A stretch of DNA of 44,232 bases from Promethearchaeota archaeon (GTDB taxonomy: Archaea; Asgardarchaeota; Lokiarchaeia; Sigyniarchaeales; SOKP01). The translations under genes and the position numbers were made by a program. The notes beneath the pieces are model-generated. The model was given only the letters and a program-made list of their open reading frames with translations, did not search any database and was not told where the DNA came from. The stretch lies in assembly GCA_016839765.1 (NCBI GenBank), contig JAEOTP010000029.1, forward strand, positions 1 to 44,232, in the 5' to 3' direction. Positions 4,105-28,229 of the stretch are shown piece by piece. Every line of letters begins with the position of its first letter. Positions within the stretch are counted from its first letter, which is position 1.

Positions 4105-4747
4105 TATTGATAATGATGTATTAGATATAAAATCTTTAGAAAAGAAAGTGTATAGATCTTTCTTTGAAGATGGTTTTTGGGATATTTTTATTGGTATGTT
4201 ATTGCTTGGTTTCGGTTTGGGTTGGACTCGAATAATTTTCGATATATTTGAGCCTTTGGACATTATGATAATTTCAATTATCTGGACCACTATAACCTTT
4301 TTAATATATTATCTGGGAAAGAAATTTATAACCCTTCCTCGAATTGGAATTGTTAAATTTGGACAAAAAAGAAAGGTTCGGCAAAAAAAATTAAAAATTT
4401 TCCTCTTAATTAATGTTTTATTTGGTTGTATTGTCTTTATTCTAACATTTTTTGGATTATTAGAATTTCTTGCTTTAGCGGGATCATTAACTCCTTTGCT
4501 TATTGGTTTGATTTCATATACCTTTCCTTTTACAATTGTTGCCTACTTCTTGGACTTTAATCGGCTTTATATTTATGCTCTTATGGGGGGTTTCAGCTTT
4601 TTCATCTCGGATATTATTTATTCTATTCTAGGAAGTCCATTAGATAGCATAATCGGATTTGGAGTCCCTGGAGGAATTATAGTGGTGGTTGGGTTAATAT
4701 TTTTCATAAAATTCTTACGTAAGTATCCTAAACCAAAAAAAGATTAA
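4097..4747 (+). CDS. Integral membrane protein, second of the tandem pair
   Basis: 216 aa with about six hydrophobic segments. An upstream in-frame TTG at 4046 exists, but the ATG at 4097 is preferred: AAGGAGG lies at 4081-4087, 9 nt upstream, and the resulting protein aligns end to end with the preceding 216-aa gene. The ATG falls inside the last codons of the upstream gene, implying translational coupling. The pair probably arose by tandem duplication and may form a heteromer. The gene is followed by a winged-helix regulator in the same direction. Function unknown. Confidence 0.8.
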   Translation: MVDIDNDVLDIKSLEKKVYRSFFEDGFWDIFIGMLLLGFGLGWTRIIFDIFEPLDIMIISIIWTTITFLIYYLGKKFITLPRIGIVKFGQKRKVRQKKLKIFLLINVLFGCIVFILTFFGLLEFLALAGSLTPLLIGLISYTFPFTIVAYFLDFNRLYIYALMGGFSFFISDIIYSILGSPLDSIIGFGVPGGIIVVVGLIFFIKFLRKYPKPKKD

Positions 4748-4757
4748 AAAATCCAAA

Positions 4758-4763
4758 AGGTTG
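4758..4763 (+). promoter_or_regulatory. AGGTTG Shine-Dalgarno-like site for a near-cognate ACG start
   Basis: AGGTTG ends 7 nt before the in-frame ACG at 4771. The TTG inside it is in another frame and meets a stop after one codon. It is weaker than the GGTG of the other cases because of the extra T. Confidence 0.4.
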
Positions 4764-4770
4764 ATTTAAG

Positions 4771-5097
4771 ACGAGCAAAGAAAAAAATAATATAGATAAA
4801 ATAACTTCGATTTCAGATATTGATAAATTAATTCATGAACCTGCTCGTCTTAGCATTATAGCTTATTTATATGTAGTAGAAAGCGCAGACATGGTATTTT
4901 TAAAAAATCAAACAGAGTTAACATGGGGAAATCTATCTTCACATATCAGTAAACTTGAAGAAGCTGGTTATGTAAATGTTGAGAAACGATTTAAAGGTAA
5001 GAAACCTCAAACATTACTCCATTTATCAGAGAAAGGACGAAATGCTTTTACTGAATATAGAAAAAAATTAACTCAGGTTTTGGGTAAAATATCTTAG
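4771..5097 (+). CDS. Winged-helix DNA-binding regulator (PF13601-like)
   Basis: Small ArsR/MarR-like regulator. The motifs are DKLIHEPARLSIIAYL (helix 1), LTWGNLSSHISKLEEAGYV (recognition helix) and a wing with KRFKGKKPQT, then LSEKGRNAF. This is the typical pattern of the 'winged helix DNA-binding domain' family, in which the HEPxRL motif opens the domain. The first ATG (4891) would remove that motif. The frame is open back to 4765 but has no ATG, GTG or TTG; ACG 4771, 7 nt after AGGTTG, gives 108 aa, the usual family length. It likely controls the adjacent membrane cassette, since such regulators commonly act on neighbouring membrane-protein genes. Confidence 0.8.
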   Translation, partial: TSKEKNNIDKITSISDIDKLIHEPARLSIIAYLYVVESADMVFLKNQTELTWGNLSSHISKLEEAGYVNVEKRFKGKKPQTLLHLSEKGRNAFTEYRKKLTQVLGKIS

Positions 5098-5220
5098 AGA
5101 AAAATTTAAGAAAACAAATTGATTACACTTAAACTTAATACTTTATAAAAAAAATAATTATATAGATTCTAAAATCTTATAAAATTAATTTATTGCATAA
5201 AATTTAAATTGAATTGAGTT

Positions 5221-5721
5221 ATGACTGAGATGGATAAAATAAAAGAACGGTCAGAAAGGATGATAAAATTATTTAATGCATTCAAAAACCAGGAATTAAA
5301 AGATTTCCCCGTACCTCCTTTTTCAAAATGGCTAAATGGTAAGATTATTAAAGCAGAATATGGAAAATTAGAGTTGGAATTTAAAGTTAGACCTGAGATG
5401 GCAAATCCTACCGGTTTATTACATGGTGGAATGCAATGTGGATTAATGGATGATGCTATAGGAATGACGACAGCAACTTTAGGGTATGAAGGATTCCCCA
5501 TTTCAATAGATTTTCATGTTGATTACTTAGGGAAAGTAAAAGTTGATGAAAAAGTAAAAGTTATTGGTAAGATAATCCGCGAAGGTCGAAATATAATCCA
5601 TGCCATTGCGGAAATTTATGACTTCAATGGAAATTTAATCTCTACTGGAAATTCTAATTTACTTAAAACCACCTATGTGCCTAATTATGTGAAAAATGCT
5701 GATAAACTAAAAAAGATATAA
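5221..5721 (+). CDS. PaaI-type hotdog-fold thioesterase
   Basis: 166 aa. The motif PTGLLHGGMQCGLMDDAIG (about residues 62-80) is the hotdog-fold thioesterase core, with HGG at the active-site helix and the acidic residue following in the DD pair. The remaining strands (ISIDFHVDYLGKV, VKVIGKIIREGRNIIHAIAEI) fit a single hotdog domain with about 35 extra N-terminal residues. The family hydrolyses acyl-CoA thioesters in the cytoplasm as tetramers. The substrate is unknown, though other acyl-CoA enzymes occur further along. It is convergent with the WD40-TIR gene. Confidence 0.8.
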   Translation: MTEMDKIKERSERMIKLFNAFKNQELKDFPVPPFSKWLNGKIIKAEYGKLELEFKVRPEMANPTGLLHGGMQCGLMDDAIGMTTATLGYEGFPISIDFHVDYLGKVKVDEKVKVIGKIIREGRNIIHAIAEIYDFNGNLISTGNSNLLKTTYVPNYVKNADKLKKI

Positions 5722-5832
5722 TAATTCTTCTTATCATAATAAGAAAATAATTACCTATCAACTGAATTTATATATGAATATTTTCAAAATTAAAGAAATT
5801 AAAAAAATGAGTTAATTATTAAATGAAACTAC

Positions 5833-8800
5833 TCATCTGAGAATTGACATTTTTTTAATAATGATATTATGAAGCTCTACGATATTTTTTTCCATATCCA
5901 TCAAATCGAATTCAAGTCCTAATCGTGATTTAAGAAGCGGAGGAATATATTCTGGTTTTAAAAACACAGGAATGATAGGTTTGTCAATCATATCAGCTGC
6001 AGTCCATTCTTTTTTGACAGGTATAGAATTTAGAGCATTTTCAGAACAAAATATTATTAGTACATGGCTCTTACCAAGATATTCATCCATATACTCCATA
6101 ATATTATCTGTTATGTGTTTTTCACAATAATAAACTTCTTTTATTTCGTCATATTCAGTTAATCTTTTCGCAATCTCTTCTATTTTAAATAGTTCTGCAT
6201 CTTTTATAGCATAACTCACAAACACTAAAAGATCTGTTAATTTTTCACTTGGCTTAAATTTTTCTTCTAGGAGAGGATAATTTCTGAATTTCTGAATAAA
6301 ACCCCCATCCTTTAAAAATTTACCAATTTTTTTTGCTGTTTTATAATCATATTCCAGCTTGACTACTAAATCATAAAGGGTGGGTTTAATGAATTCTCTT
6401 AAGATTTTTGTACTAAACGATTGTAATTCTTCAATTTCAGAAGTATTGTAAGTTATAGGATTTAATAAGATATTTTGATAATAATCAGTATCTGAAATTT
6501 CAATATTTAAATAAGAAACCATTTCTCCTTTTGTTATATCTCTCTGTTTCTCATACTCAAATTCTATAATCTTTTTAACAGCATTGTTGGTTTCTGTAGG
6601 ATCTCTCAGATTTTTTAACTTTTCAAAAGCAATAGATTGAATTTCCTCAAAATTAAATAAATCAGCGCTTTCTAAAATGTAGTTCAATTGTTCGATTGCT
6701 ACTGAATAATTATTTTCTGCAATTAACTCCTCCACATCGGATAATTTGCCTCGTAACTCTTTAACGAGTTGTTCTTTTTCTTCCATTAATAAATCCCATA
6801 TCAAGACATCGCCTGAACTATAACCTGCCATTATTTGCTTTTTATTTGGAATAAACCTTAACGAATTGACTTTTGATAAATAATAATAGGTTGTTTGATA
6901 TTTTTCAATAAAATCCCATATTCTAACAAAATTATCTTCTGTTCCACATGCTACAAATAATCCATCAGATGAGAACGCTACTGATGTTACTGGACTGTTT
7001 ATTTTTTCAAATGTATAATCAAGTTCACCTGTATTAAATTTCCATATTCTTACAGTTTGGTCTTTAGAACCACTAGCAATATATTCTCCATCAGGTGAAA
7101 TTGCAACTGCTGTTACTGGTTCAGTATGTCCTTGAAGTGTTCGAATTGGTTTCCCTCCTTTTAGTTCCCATATATTTATAGAATTATCTTCTGAACCAGT
7201 AATAATATAATCTCCATCAGGAGAAACATCAATACTAGTGATAGCTTTAGAATGCCCTTTTAATTTTTTTTTTAATTTACCCGTAGAATATTCCCAAATT
7301 ATTGCAGTTTTATCTTTAGAACCACTAACAATATATTTTTTATCCTTTGCTACTGCAACAGAAGTTATAGCATCTTCATGACTACTAAAGGTCCAAATAT
7401 CCTCCCCACTATCTACTTCCCATACTTTTAAAGTGTTATCATTGGAAGTACTAAACACAAAATTTCCATCAGGAGAGAAAGCTACAGAATTGATAATATC
7501 TGTATGACCTTCGAGGGTTTTAATTAATTCTCCGTTAGAAAGATCCCATATAATTAAAGATTTATTTGATAAACCACTTACTGCATATTTTCCATCAGAA
7601 GAAACTGCTACTGAATTTACATTATCAGAATGACCCTTTATGATTTTAAAAATACCACCGAAACTTAGAGACCAGGTTCTTACAGTTCCATCTAGGGAAC
7701 CACTAACCGCTAATTTACCATCTGGACTAATAGCTACGGTTGAGACTTCTTTTAAGTGGTCATCAAATGTTTGAATTAGTTGGTGTTTAGTCGTATCCCA
7801 TATTTTGACTGTAGTATCACTAGAACCGCTAATTAAATGTGGTCCTATAGGAGAACATGAAACACTCAATACCTCATCTGTATGGTCTTCAAGAGATTTA
7901 ATTAAATTAAATTCTGAATAGAAATCCCACATCTTTATTGAGTTATCATCTGAACCACTAAAAATGATTCCACCTTTAGGAGAAATTGAAATGGATAAAA
8001 CTTTACCTTTATGTTCACTAATGGTTTTAATTGCTTGTTTTGAAGAAAAATCCCATATTTTTATATTTTTATCTTCTGACCCAGTAACAAAATATTTCTC
8101 ATTAGGGGTAAAAGCTATAGATGTTATTGGTCCTTTATGTTCTTTTGTTTCCCATATGAAATCTTTTACGTCATAATCCCATATTTTTAAATAATTATTG
8201 TTTAAGCCCAACATTATTTGGTTACTTTTCGGGATAAAAATTGCTGAAAGCGCAACATTTGGCAATTTTTGAGATGTTAAGTTATTTTGTGTTTTAACAT
8301 CCCATAAAATTACACTTTTATCCCAAGATGCACTAATAAGATAATCTCCATCAGAAGAAAATGCAACTGAAGAAATCGGTTTTTTATGTCCTTTAAAAGT
8401 TCCTAGGAGTCTTTGTGTATTGATATCCCATATTTTTATTAAATTATCGTTTCCTCCTGTCGCTAAATAGACTCCATTTGGAGAAATTGTTATTACAATT
8501 ACACCATCAGAATGAGCTGCTATAGGACTAAAAAGTTTATCTTCTGCCAACTCCCATACCATTATATTATTATCAGAAGAACCTGCTATTAAGTATCTCC
8601 CATTAGGAGAAAAAGTTAAAGATCGTATTGAATCAGTATCTCCCTTCAATGTCCTAATAAGCTTACCTGTAGATAATTCCCAAAATTTAATAGTTTTGTC
8701 ATCAGATCCACTTATAAATAAATCTTCCTTGGGGGAAATTGCAATAGATTGCACACTCCCTTCATGATCTTTAAGTAAGTAAATAGGTCTTCCTTTAGAG

Positions 8801-9510
8801 AAATCCCAAACCTTAACATTATTGTCTTCTCCACCACTAACGATAAAGTCTCCATTAGGAGAAATTGCTAATGAATTCACACCACCAGAATGCCCTTTTA
8901 TTGTACGAATAAATTTTTGCTTCTCTAAATTCCATACTCTAATAGAACCTTCCTCAGTTCCTGATACTAAAGAATTACCATCTTGGGAAATGGCAATTGA
9001 AGAAACAGCATTTTTATGTTCTAATTTTTTTCCCACCTGTTTTCCTGTGAAAATATCCCATACAATTACATTGGTATCTTTAGAACTACTAATAAAATGT
9101 TTTCCATTAGGTGAAACTGTAACTGCTGTTATTGGTTCAGTATGTCCTTGAAGTGTTCGAATTGGTTTCCCTCTTTTTAATCCCCATACTTTAATCGTGT
9201 TATCCGAAGAGCCACTAATTATATAATTATCGTCCATAGACACAGCTACGGATAATATTGATTGATCGTGAGCTTCAATTGACTTTAGAAGATTTCCCGT
9301 TGAGAAATCCCAAATTTTAATTGTATTATCTTTTGAACCGCTAACTATATATTCTCCATTATGAGATATACTCACCGAGGTTACATCATTACTATGTCCA
9401 AAATTTTGCGTTAATTGAAATGCTTTCCCAAGACCTTTTTTTTCTGGAAATAAATGCTTTGGATATTCAAAACTGCCCTTTTTACCATTTTCTTCTAATT
9501 CATATTGCAG
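5833..9510 (-). CDS. Giant WD40 protein with 21 blades and a C-terminal TIR domain
   Basis: 1225 aa from a proposed CTG start at 9510. The first GTG (9375) would cut the first blade (HSNDVTSVSISHNGEY) in half. The frame is open to a TGA at 9517-9519, and CTG lies 7 nt after GGTG. I count 21 blade ends of the IKIWD/VRIWK type, so three seven-bladed propellers (residues about 35-900). A helical region with a winged-helix-like piece (TLYDLVVKLEYDYKTAKKIGKFL) follows. The end (about 1090-1225) is a TIR domain: LLVFVSYAIKD, then IPVKKEW, whose glutamate (about residue 1168) occupies the catalytic position of TIR NADases. There is no NTPase domain, so this is not a STAND protein. A sensor role for the propellers and NAD+ cleavage by the TIR domain are inferred. 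Confidence 0.88.
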   Translation of the reverse strand: MQYELEENGKKGSFEYPKHLFPEKKGLGKAFQLTQNFGHSNDVTSVSISHNGEYIVSGSKDNTIKIWDFSTGNLLKSIEAHDQSILSVAVSMDDNYIISGSSDNTIKVWGLKRGKPIRTLQGHTEPITAVTVSPNGKHFISSSKDTNVIVWDIFTGKQVGKKLEHKNAVSSIAISQDGNSLVSGTEEGSIRVWNLEKQKFIRTIKGHSGGVNSLAISPNGDFIVSGGEDNNVKVWDFSKGRPIYLLKDHEGSVQSIAISPKEDLFISGSDDKTIKFWELSTGKLIRTLKGDTDSIRSLTFSPNGRYLIAGSSDNNIMVWELAEDKLFSPIAAHSDGVIVITISPNGVYLATGGNDNLIKIWDINTQRLLGTFKGHKKPISSVAFSSDGDYLISASWDKSVILWDVKTQNNLTSQKLPNVALSAIFIPKSNQIMLGLNNNYLKIWDYDVKDFIWETKEHKGPITSIAFTPNEKYFVTGSEDKNIKIWDFSSKQAIKTISEHKGKVLSISISPKGGIIFSGSDDNSIKMWDFYSEFNLIKSLEDHTDEVLSVSCSPIGPHLISGSSDTTVKIWDTTKHQLIQTFDDHLKEVSTVAISPDGKLAVSGSLDGTVRTWSLSFGGIFKIIKGHSDNVNSVAVSSDGKYAVSGLSNKSLIIWDLSNGELIKTLEGHTDIINSVAFSPDGNFVFSTSNDNTLKVWEVDSGEDIWTFSSHEDAITSVAVAKDKKYIVSGSKDKTAIIWEYSTGKLKKKLKGHSKAITSIDVSPDGDYIITGSEDNSINIWELKGGKPIRTLQGHTEPVTAVAISPDGEYIASGSKDQTVRIWKFNTGELDYTFEKINSPVTSVAFSSDGLFVACGTEDNFVRIWDFIEKYQTTYYYLSKVNSLRFIPNKKQIMAGYSSGDVLIWDLLMEEKEQLVKELRGKLSDVEELIAENNYSVAIEQLNYILESADLFNFEEIQSIAFEKLKNLRDPTETNNAVKKIIEFEYEKQRDITKGEMVSYLNIEISDTDYYQNILLNPITYNTSEIEELQSFSTKILREFIKPTLYDLVVKLEYDYKTAKKIGKFLKDGGFIQKFRNYPLLEEKFKPSEKLTDLLVFVSYAIKDAELFKIEEIAKRLTEYDEIKEVYYCEKHITDNIMEYMDEYLGKSHVLIIFCSENALNSIPVKKEWTAADMIDKPIIPVFLKPEYIPPLLKSRLGLEFDLMDMEKNIVELHNIIIKKMSILR
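7105..7157 (-). repeat. Near-identical intragenic repeat, copy A (WD blades 18/19)
   Basis: 53 nt match the segment at 9121-9173 with a single mismatch (C versus T at the eleventh base). It encodes the protein segment around KPIRTLQGHTEP. The two copies are 2016 nt apart, exactly 16 units of 42 codons, so they are in register with the WD40 periodicity. Confidence 0.85.
9121..9173 (-). repeat. Near-identical intragenic repeat, copy B (WD blades 2/3)
   Basis: Partner of the copy at 7105-7157. Other blades of this gene are far more diverged at the nucleotide level, so this pair reflects recent duplication or gene conversion. Confidence 0.85.
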
Positions 9511-9515
9511 GAAAA

Positions 9516-9524
9516 ATCACCTTT
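9516..9524 (-). promoter_or_regulatory. AAAGGTGAT Shine-Dalgarno site for a near-cognate CTG start
   Basis: AAAGGTGAT is a long match to the archaeal 16S anti-SD core (AGGAGGTGAT on the mRNA side). Its GGTG lies 7 nt before CTG 9510, and the frame has no ATG, GTG or TTG before 9375. It overlaps the TGA that closes the frame upstream. Confidence 0.6.
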
Positions 9525-9717
9525 CTAAGTATTTTTGAATTTCAAAATAATATTTATATTACAGTTAAATATTGATCGCTTCTACGTTTAAATATTTTCA
9601 AATTTATATGAAATCGAGAAATTTAATAATTTAGTCTTAAAAAAATAAAGATTAAGGTTTGTTAATTGTTAACTTGAAATTTAAAACTTAAAAAGAAAAA
9701 AAAAGTAATTAATTATT

Positions 9718-10152
9718 TTAAGCGTATCTTTTCCTAGTGAAAAGTAACCATATAAATCCAATTAACCCAACAAGAAAAGCAATTATAGTAATATAATTCG
9801 GCCAAAATTCCACATCGAAGGACGCAGGATTTTGAATCCAACTAATTATTGGAGATATGCCAGTGATAACCATAATGCTTAAAACTACTAATGCTTGCCC
9901 CATAGCCCATTCCGCTTCCCTAAACATACCGATTCCGGCTACGATACACCAAAAACCTAAAGCTATAGATATTAAGCCTAGACTACCAAATATAGAAAGG
10001 GCTGAACCATCGGTAATAATCGCTTCAAAAACTGGGGGAACATATATTCCTGCCCAAGCTAATAATTCAAGAATTGATTTGAATATAAAAATCAATCCAA
10101 TGACAATCATTAAAGTATTTAAAATTCCACTCGATTCTTTTACTTTACTCAT
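9718..10152 (-). CDS. Four-helix small membrane protein, paralogue of 27804-28229
   Basis: 144 aa with four hydrophobic helices. It shares a strongly conserved core, GFWCIVAGIGMFREAEWAMG, and the ending FIWLLFTRKRY with the protein at 27804-28229, including similar length and topology. No characterised family is recognised. A possible TATA-like TTTATATGA lies about 60 nt upstream on the minus strand. The acidic/aromatic FREAEWAMG loop between helices 2 and 3 is the best candidate for a functional site. Confidence 0.75.
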   Translation of the reverse strand: MSKVKESSGILNTLMIVIGLIFIFKSILELLAWAGIYVPPVFEAIITDGSALSIFGSLGLISIALGFWCIVAGIGMFREAEWAMGQALVVLSIMVITGISPIISWIQNPASFDVEFWPNYITIIAFLVGLIGFIWLLFTRKRYA

Positions 10153-10316
10153 TAGAATTCTTCCACTCTTTTTTTTTTAAAAAATGAGATTATTATACAG
10201 AAAAATCAAAGTTATCATATAAAGTTAATTTAAGCAATTGAAAAATTTACAATCTAGTTATGCATAATTTTATTATAACTACAATTATACCTGTTGAAAA
10301 TATCCAATTAAAAAAA

Positions 10317-11252
10317 ATGAATAAATTGGTTAGTAAAGAAATTCGAAACCAAATTACGAATTTAAAAAAGAATAATAAATCGGGAGCTAATGAATTTATC
10401 AATAAAACTCTAGAGATAATAAATTGTCAATTGGAATTAGTTAAAGATCAGTATAAAGATATTAATCCTCTTATGTTCGAATTATCTAAAGAAGTTATCT
10501 CTTCACGTCCTAGCATGGCACCATTAATTAATACAATTGGTTTTTTAATCCATGGCTTGAAAATAGTAAATAAAAACTCGATTCTTTTAAGAATTAAACA
10601 AATTAAGGAAGAAAGAGAAAAAATATCTTCAATTCTAATGTCAAATTTTCTATCATTTCTTACTAAATTCAAAAAAACAACCCTGAAAATTATGTTAATA
10701 TCCTATAGTTCGACAATTATCGAGCTATTAACTCAATACGATAAGAATGACCTTATTATTTATGTGCTAGAATCTCGACCTCTTTTTGAAGGTCATCGAG
10801 TTTCTGAACTCTTATCAAATAAGTATGAGACTCATTTAATAATTGATGCTGCAATGGGAAAATATATAGATGATATTGATTTTGTTTTTATTGGTGTTGA
10901 CAGTGTATTAGAAGATGGTTCTATTATTAATAAGATCGGCACTTATCCTCTAGCTGTGCTAACAAAATCCACAAATGCGCAAGTCTATGCCATATGTGAT
11001 ACTTTTAAATATAATTTATTAAGCCATTATGGATATGAAGTTAAAATTGAAGAAAAACCTATAAAGGAAGTATATAATAAAAAAATCAAGCAGGATTTGC
11101 TTAAAGTACATAATTATTATTTTGATATAACTCCTCCCGAATATATTGATGGAGTAATTTCGGATTTGGGAATACTAACAATTAAAGAATTTATTGAAGA
11201 AGTTAAGAATAAACTCCCTATAGATTGGTTTGAAAAATTTATTAAATCATAA
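10317..11252 (+). CDS. eIF2B-family protein (IF-2B / ribose-1,5-bisphosphate isomerase fold)
   Basis: 311 aa from ATG 10317; an ATG at 10260 would add a hydrophobic stretch unlike the family. The C-terminal Rossmann-like half shows the family pattern: YVLESRPLFEGHRVSELL, IDAAMGKYIDDIDFVFIGVDSV, then KIGTYPLAVLTKS and VYAICDTFKYN. This matches eIF2B alpha/beta/delta and their archaeal relatives, which include regulatory initiation-factor homologues and sugar-phosphate isomerases (R15P isomerase, MtnA). The catalytic Cys and Asp of the isomerases are not obvious, so I call only the family. The next gene begins 14 nt downstream with its own GGTG site, suggesting an operon. Confidence 0.78.
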   Translation: MNKLVSKEIRNQITNLKKNNKSGANEFINKTLEIINCQLELVKDQYKDINPLMFELSKEVISSRPSMAPLINTIGFLIHGLKIVNKNSILLRIKQIKEEREKISSILMSNFLSFLTKFKKTTLKIMLISYSSTIIELLTQYDKNDLIIYVLESRPLFEGHRVSELLSNKYETHLIIDAAMGKYIDDIDFVFIGVDSVLEDGSIINKIGTYPLAVLTKSTNAQVYAICDTFKYNLLSHYGYEVKIEEKPIKEVYNKKIKQDLLKVHNYYFDITPPEYIDGVISDLGILTIKEFIEEVKNKLPIDWFEKFIKS

Positions 11253-27803: not shown

Positions 27804-28229
27804 CTAATCATATCTTTTATATGTAAAGAGTAACCAGATAAAGCCAGCCGTTCCGATTATAAATGCAACCAAGATTATATAATTGGGCCAAACTTCATAC
27901 CAATTAGTACCGGGCCATGATAGCATTACTGCTAGAGTTTGAACCGCCATAACACTTAAAACAACTAGACCCATTCCCATGGCATATTCCTCTTCACGAA
28001 ACATACCAATTCCAGAAACTATACACCAAAATCCTAGTATTGCTGAAACTAAGCCGGAAGGTCCAAAAATTGAAAGTGTTGCTACAACATAAGGATCTGA
28101 TAGATCAATTCCTAGACTAACTCCTGCCCATGCTAAGAGGTTGATCACACCCATCAAGACAAAAAGAGCACCGATGATTATCATTAAAATATTCAATAAC
28201 TCATTAGAATCTTTTTTTTTCTCGCTCAT
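27804..28229 (-). CDS. Four-helix small membrane protein, paralogue of 9718-10152
   Basis: 141 aa with four hydrophobic helices and the same GFWCIVSGIGMFREEEYAMG core and FIWLLFTYKRY ending as the gene at 9718-10152. A clear TATA-like element (TTTATATAA on the minus strand, about 28291-28306) sits about 65 nt upstream of the ATG. No Shine-Dalgarno site is visible. Its role is unknown. Confidence 0.75.
   Translation of the reverse strand: MSEKKKDSNELLNILMIIIGALFVLMGVINLLAWAGVSLGIDLSDPYVVATLSIFGPSGLVSAILGFWCIVSGIGMFREEEYAMGMGLVVLSVMAVQTLAVMLSWPGTNWYEVWPNYIILVAFIIGTAGFIWLLFTYKRYD

Follow-up and report, generated by a model that had tools for sequence, protein, structure and literature searches.

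A triple-propeller WD40 protein with a C-terminal TIR domain and no STAND NTPase, carried by a mobile gene cassette of a Lokiarchaeian archaeon

The window is the whole stretch of DNA that was analysed (44,232 nucleotides). Its host is a Lokiarchaeian Asgard archaeon, and the named matches are all to Candidatus Lokiarchaeota/Lokiarchaeia assemblies. On the minus strand, a frame of 1,225 codons runs uninterrupted over positions 5836–9510, and the stop codon occupies 5833–5835. The encoded protein, here called WD40-TIR, consists of WD40 repeats, a helical linker and a TIR domain. A gene for a small membrane protein with four predicted helices (4TM) lies upstream of it. The features of the locus are as follows.

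5722–10259, no strand: inserted segment with the WD40-TIR and 4TM genes (flanking genes 22–74 bp apart in three relatives)
9718–10152, minus strand: 4TM, 144 aa, upstream of and co-oriented with WD40-TIR (hydropathy)
9517–9524, minus strand: AAAGGTGA, likely ribosome-binding site of the WD40-TIR gene, a few bases before the CTG
5833–9510, minus strand: WD40-TIR, 21 WD40 blades, linker and TIR domain, 1,225 aa, CTG start (Pfam matches, orthologue alignment)
9403–9510, minus strand: N-terminal extension with the conserved FEYPxHLxPxxKGLxKAF (synonymous codon changes among orthologues)
8548–9402, minus strand: propeller 1, blades 1–7, about residues 37–321 (blade motifs, full-length model)
7666–8529, minus strand: propeller 2, blades 8–14, about residues 328–615 (blade motifs, full-length model)
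6787–7647, minus strand: propeller 3, blades 15–21, about residues 622–908 (blade motifs, full-length model)
6232–6786, minus strand: helical linker, residues 909–1093 (model; specific to WD40-TIR orthologues at the sequence level)
5845–6231, minus strand: TIR domain, residues 1094–1222 (PF13676, model, fold matches, TIR-1 profile match)
6007–6009, minus strand: codon of the catalytic-position residue E1168 in KKEW (family alignment, TIR-1 alignment)

The start codon of WD40-TIR is CTG at 9508–9510. The start given in the list of open reading frames, GTG at 9375, was rejected as too late, because the conserved coding motif of the N-terminal extension stands upstream of it. This motif was compared in 8–9 orthologues, and synonymous codon changes served as the evidence of coding. 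No ATG is present at the conserved start position of the orthologues; the codon is TTG in G020 and ATT or ATC in most others, and the G019 orthologue has no obvious start codon there. AAGGTG-like sites precede the non-ATG starts in most orthologues. Judged from the codons, such starts would fit a low expression of this costly protein.

A pattern scan of WD40-TIR found 20 occurrences of the blade-end motif at a spacing of 40–43 residues (about 42). One gap of 84 residues between blade ends contains an extra blade, AIIWE (residue 736), which the pattern missed, so that the number of blades is 21. The Pfam WD40 match has an E-value of 6.8e-216. The full-length model covers residues 27–1225 and was built from an alignment of only 7 sequences, with a mean pLDDT of 75.8. 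Its WD40 part is confident, and the confidence drops only near the model positions 296–301, 590–595 and 884–887. These breaks divide the WD40 part into three units of about 294 residues, which equals 7 × 42. According to the three units and the 21 blades, the count closes into three complete seven-bladed propellers, and the sequence-only reading, which had arrived at exactly three propellers from 21 blade endings, is confirmed by both the motifs and the model. In Foldseek, the WD40 part matches proteins with two propellers, such as 2ymu, and APAF-1.

At the DNA level, the window copy has 83% identity between blades 3 and 19, where two blades average 53%, and the pair has an exact tract of 41 bases in common. 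Six full-length orthologues were compared, and in them this pair has 56–62% identity. The window's blade 3 also diverges unusually strongly from blade 3 of the orthologues (46% identity vs 73% among the orthologues themselves). In the lineage of the window copy, a blade has been overwritten with the sequence of another one, as a single event.

Pfam assigns no family to the linker itself, which forms nine helices and zero strands in the predicted structure. In other TIR proteins of the family, the linker matches PCI (winged helix) weakly, with scores slightly below the Pfam cut-off; when the WD40-TIR linker was compared with these PCI-like linkers by hhalign, the probability was 4.6%. A PCI winged helix between the sensor and the TIR domain was thus not supported by Pfam, by the profile comparison or by the all-helical model, and the 'winged-helix-like' section proposed from the letters was not borne out. 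A PCI-like segment of helices occurs in another TIR protein of the same genome (contig C18, L003:1402–3066), which in addition has two N-terminal domains without assignment.

The C-terminal domain belongs to the TIR family by its fold and by the Pfam TIR_2 match (E=9.7e-13, 49.1 bits against a cut-off of 28). A model of the linker and TIR domain was made from 70 family sequences, and most of the TIR domain has a pLDDT above 90. The nearest solved folds in Foldseek are BtTir, BtpA/TcpB, PdTIR, AbTir and the SPARTA TIR-APAZ, with modest E-values of 9e-4 and weaker for a query that included the linker. A search of the PDB sequences with the single TIR gave no usable match, whereas the family profile gave NAD+ hydrolase TIR-1 as the best match (E=1.6e-6, whole chain). 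In this alignment, VkkEw of the family is placed on VHKEL of TIR-1, which is the catalytic Glu position. WD40-TIR has the catalytic Glu of TIR NADases, in the pattern S-x2-V/C-x2-E: E1168 occupies the SARM1-type catalytic position and is kept in 79 of the 82 aligned family TIRs, and S1162 is kept in all 82. The glutamate of KKEW, which had been pointed out as catalytic in position, is therefore upheld by the family and TIR-1 alignments, and the comparison with NADase-active TIRs is positive for the fold and for the catalytic Glu. According to the sequence and the model, the TIR domain probably destroys NAD+.

In Pfam, no NTPase family matches the C-terminal 317 aa of WD40-TIR, and the rest of the chain is WD40. 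The protein is not of the STAND/NLR type, whose chains include a P-loop NTPase, either NB-ARC or NACHT. Across the whole host genome, NB-ARC had no match and NACHT none above its cut-off, which makes a STAND partner in trans unlikely; this possibility was rejected. These results support the idea of a sensor and a NADase-like TIR without a nucleotide-driven module. The sequence-only reading had remarked that WD40 repeats plus TIR usually come with a STAND NTPase in immune proteins and that none is present here. The absence is real, but it is not anomalous, since WD40-TIR proteins without an NTPase recur in Lokiarchaeia. Three of the same class (L024, L061 and L065) have WD40 followed by a TIR of the same family, as in the window protein; they differ in having one propeller, a length of about 470 aa and no long helical linker. 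SARM1/TIR-1, ThsB, AbTir and the SPARTA TIRs likewise function without STAND domains. A leucine-rich-repeat protein of the host genome (contig C84, L006:1–1917) ends in a TIR domain and has no NTPase in the part read.

WD40-TIR orthologues are present in 10 of the 24 genomes of the genus, the host genome and nine others, and they are 61–64% identical across the whole chain. The distribution in the genus is patchy, and this holds for near-complete genomes as well. Among 148 genomes sampled from the phylum, strong matches to the TIR family are nearly all in one class. Very large TIR proteins of 1,400–3,600 aa are encoded at L047:5075–15940, L048:5089–10728 and L049:2–4216 and 4215–8480. Outside the membrane, these chains have solute-binding, beta-helix or Ig-like parts; they also have a membrane helix, and their TIR, again of the same family, is cytosolic. 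By this predicted domain order they are receptor-like TIR proteins in an Asgard archaeon. A genus relative has a Ras-family GTPase and a TIR domain in one chain of 443 aa (L056:2353–3681), and at L050 TPRs are fused to a TIR of the same family.

At the window locus, the WD40-TIR and 4TM genes stand between a thioesterase gene (5221–5721) and an eIF2B-like gene (10260–11252). The spacing between the same two flanking genes is about 22 bp in G023, 63 bp in G020 and 74 bp in G019, and in G023 the gene order further around this empty site is also the same. G007 and G009 carry the genes of 4TM, WD40-TIR and a Nudix protein at a second locus, between flavoprotein and ferredoxin genes, which are only 25–60 bp apart in G010, G019, G000, G020 and G004. 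The empty sites of relatives at two loci show that the cassette is moved as one unit. No integrase, transposase or repeat was recognised at the insertion borders. The cassette has the properties of defence cassettes, being patchy and mobile with empty sites in relatives. No recognised defence genes adjoin WD40-TIR, and PADLOC gave one WD40 repeat match and one marginal match only; its HEAT-ARM_XIII match was rejected because it falls on the WD40 repeats. In relatives, other TIR genes lie near or beside both insertion loci (L130, L089, L071 and L073), and the two loci may be hotspots for TIR genes.

The 4TM gene is directly upstream of WD40-TIR in all eight loci, the window included, where the contig covers that side. 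It is not exclusive to the cassette, and most genomes of the genus have an unlinked paralogue; the window itself contains one at 27804–28229, with no TIR gene adjoining. A Nudix gene of about 575 aa adjoins the WD40-TIR/4TM pair in 7 of the 10 genomes, in G003 across a contig split. In the host genome, the Nudix gene is not beside the WD40-TIR of the window and adjoins a different TIR protein. Read from its sequence, the TIR-linked Nudix protein has a C-terminal Nudix domain with an intact REVREE core, and a hydrophobic two-helix region stands before the domain. The domain is closest to NMNAT/ADP-ribose-type Nudix models. The membrane-anchored Nudix protein at L041:4521–6242 and its orthologues have an N-terminal part of about 440 aa without a family match.

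There are two subfamilies of membrane-anchored Nudix proteins, and only one is TIR-linked. In this subfamily (63–82% identity) a TIR gene adjoins in 10 of 10 genomes, and in the sister subfamily (47–51% identity) in none of the 11 loci checked; these counts come from related genomes and are not independent. The TIR neighbour is WD40-TIR in seven genomes; G000 and G023 have another, propeller-membrane-TIR protein at this place, and G011 has a TIR remnant. In G003, one Nudix copy of the sister subfamily adjoins the TIR-linked Nudix gene. In G011, a TIR remnant with several stops, a decayed copy, lies beside an intact Nudix gene (L123:6920–7333). It is conceivable, at roughly one chance in four by our estimate, that 4TM and Nudix are chance or historical neighbours and that WD40-TIR acts alone, as the Nudix gene elsewhere in the host genome and the unlinked 4TM paralogues might suggest. 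However, the TIR-Nudix-4TM linkage has persisted at several separate loci where the genes differ in order and orientation, and the sister Nudix genes lack a TIR neighbour, both of which argue against chance. Kaur et al. (2020; PMC7159879) had already listed Nudix domains among the components of conflict systems that may act on ADPr or NAD+.

Several known systems resemble WD40-TIR. SARM1 and C. elegans TIR-1 also have a C-terminal TIR with the catalytic Glu, no NTPase and a large repeat region in front. The repeats are ARM repeats there and WD40 propellers in the archaeal protein, and the linker-TIR part of WD40-TIR has no SAM or ARM match in Pfam. WD40-TIR resembles SARM1 in general plan, but it is not a member of the SARM1 family, in which SAM domains and ARM repeats precede the TIR. 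The STAND/NLR-type proteins with WD40 and TIR (APAF-1-like, bacterial TIR-NBD-WD40) likewise combine a WD40 sensor and a TIR effector in one chain, whereas the archaeal protein lacks NB-ARC/NACHT and has the reversed domain order, WD40 first and TIR last. Thoeris ThsB, AbTir, BtTir and PdTIR have the TIR fold and the catalytic Glu in common with WD40-TIR. The ThsB_TIR profile scored 20.4 bits, below its cut-off of 21.2, and no ThsA-like neighbour was recognised among the subset of neighbours scanned in the window and orthologue loci; WD40-TIR is not a Thoeris system with a ThsB-type TIR and a ThsA partner. The TEP1/NWD1-type DUF4062-NACHT-WD40 proteins also join a TIR-like NADase to WD40 repeats, but they contain NACHT and a DUF4062-type NADase and are eukaryotic (PMC13174449).

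We consider it somewhat probable that WD40-TIR is the cytosolic sensor-NADase of a mobile defence or stress cassette, and that a partner Nudix protein reads or clears an ADP-ribose-type product. The three tandem propellers would be the ligand-binding and regulatory part, and the trigger that they bind would be either a protein of an invader or a host complex that has been damaged. On binding, the helical linker would release or cluster the C-terminal TIR domains, whose self-association would complete the active site. Then E1168 would drive the cleavage of NAD+ into nicotinamide and (cyclic) ADP-ribose. The two-helix membrane-anchored Nudix protein, present in most relatives, would read or clear this product, and 4TM would work with WD40-TIR in the small cassette. 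During infection or stress, this would raise an alarm or halt growth. TRPM2 is ADP-ribose-gated and offers a comparison for the membrane Nudix protein. The mobility of the cassette and its association with Nudix indirectly favour the immune or cell-death role suggested earlier for WD40-TIR. The non-ATG starts and the overwritten blade also count in favour of the sensor-NADase reading. Points that weigh against it are the loss of the BB-loop Trp in the window copy, the lack of recognised defence genes next to it, the position of the host's Nudix gene beside another TIR protein, the unlinked 4TM paralogues and the lack of a recognised integrase or transposase at the insertion.

The same NAD+-cleaving biochemistry might instead serve intracellular stress or metabolic signalling, in which WD40 senses a host complex and Nudix turns the signal off. 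The TIR family of Lokiarchaeia, fused to many sensors (WD40, LRR, TPR, Ras and extracellular receptor domains), looks like a general signalling output module, and the genes flanking the WD40-TIR locus are metabolic. Cassette movement, patchiness and empty sites are, however, commoner among defence modules than in core signalling, and we regard this explanation as rather unlikely. A TIR that acts as a non-catalytic interaction module like the TLR/MyD88 adaptors, a scaffold recruiting other TIR proteins such as the membrane TIRs of the genome, would agree with the seven PF13676 TIR frames of the host genome, with the fold matches to TLR and MyD88 TIRs and with C1129 of the window copy at the BB-loop position that is Trp in 63 of 82 relatives and in the aligned orthologues, but it is improbable in view of the nearly invariant catalytic Glu, the best profile match to a NAD+ hydrolase and the adjacency of an ADP-ribose-type Nudix subfamily, which fits catalysis.

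In the literature searched, no direct precedent came up for TIR-WD40 proteins of Asgard archaea or Lokiarchaeota, and none of the papers there combined Asgard, TIR domain and WD40. A published survey of Asgard defence systems says little on TIR proteins and contains the word TIR twice (PMC11291487). A further, tentative proposal, less probable than the sensor-NADase reading itself, is that the three genes form a previously undescribed Asgard immune system, in which WD40-TIR would signal without STAND, Nudix would sense or clear the product and 4TM would take part in the output, and that this system belongs to a repertoire of TIR receptors, spread across Lokiarchaeia, whose sensors are interchangeable. 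No closer relatives of eukaryotes are known than the Asgard archaea. A triple-propeller TIR sensor that moves with a membrane protein, and often with Nudix, suggests an immune or stress-alarm system in these archaea. The overwriting of blades is a way for recombination to alter the sensing or recognition surface. The pairing of TIR and Nudix, with the sister subfamily as a control within the family, gives a concrete biochemical prediction. The finding makes testable how repeat domains alone could switch TIRs without a nucleotide switch, and whether TIR-based alarm signalling belongs to the archaeal toolkit.
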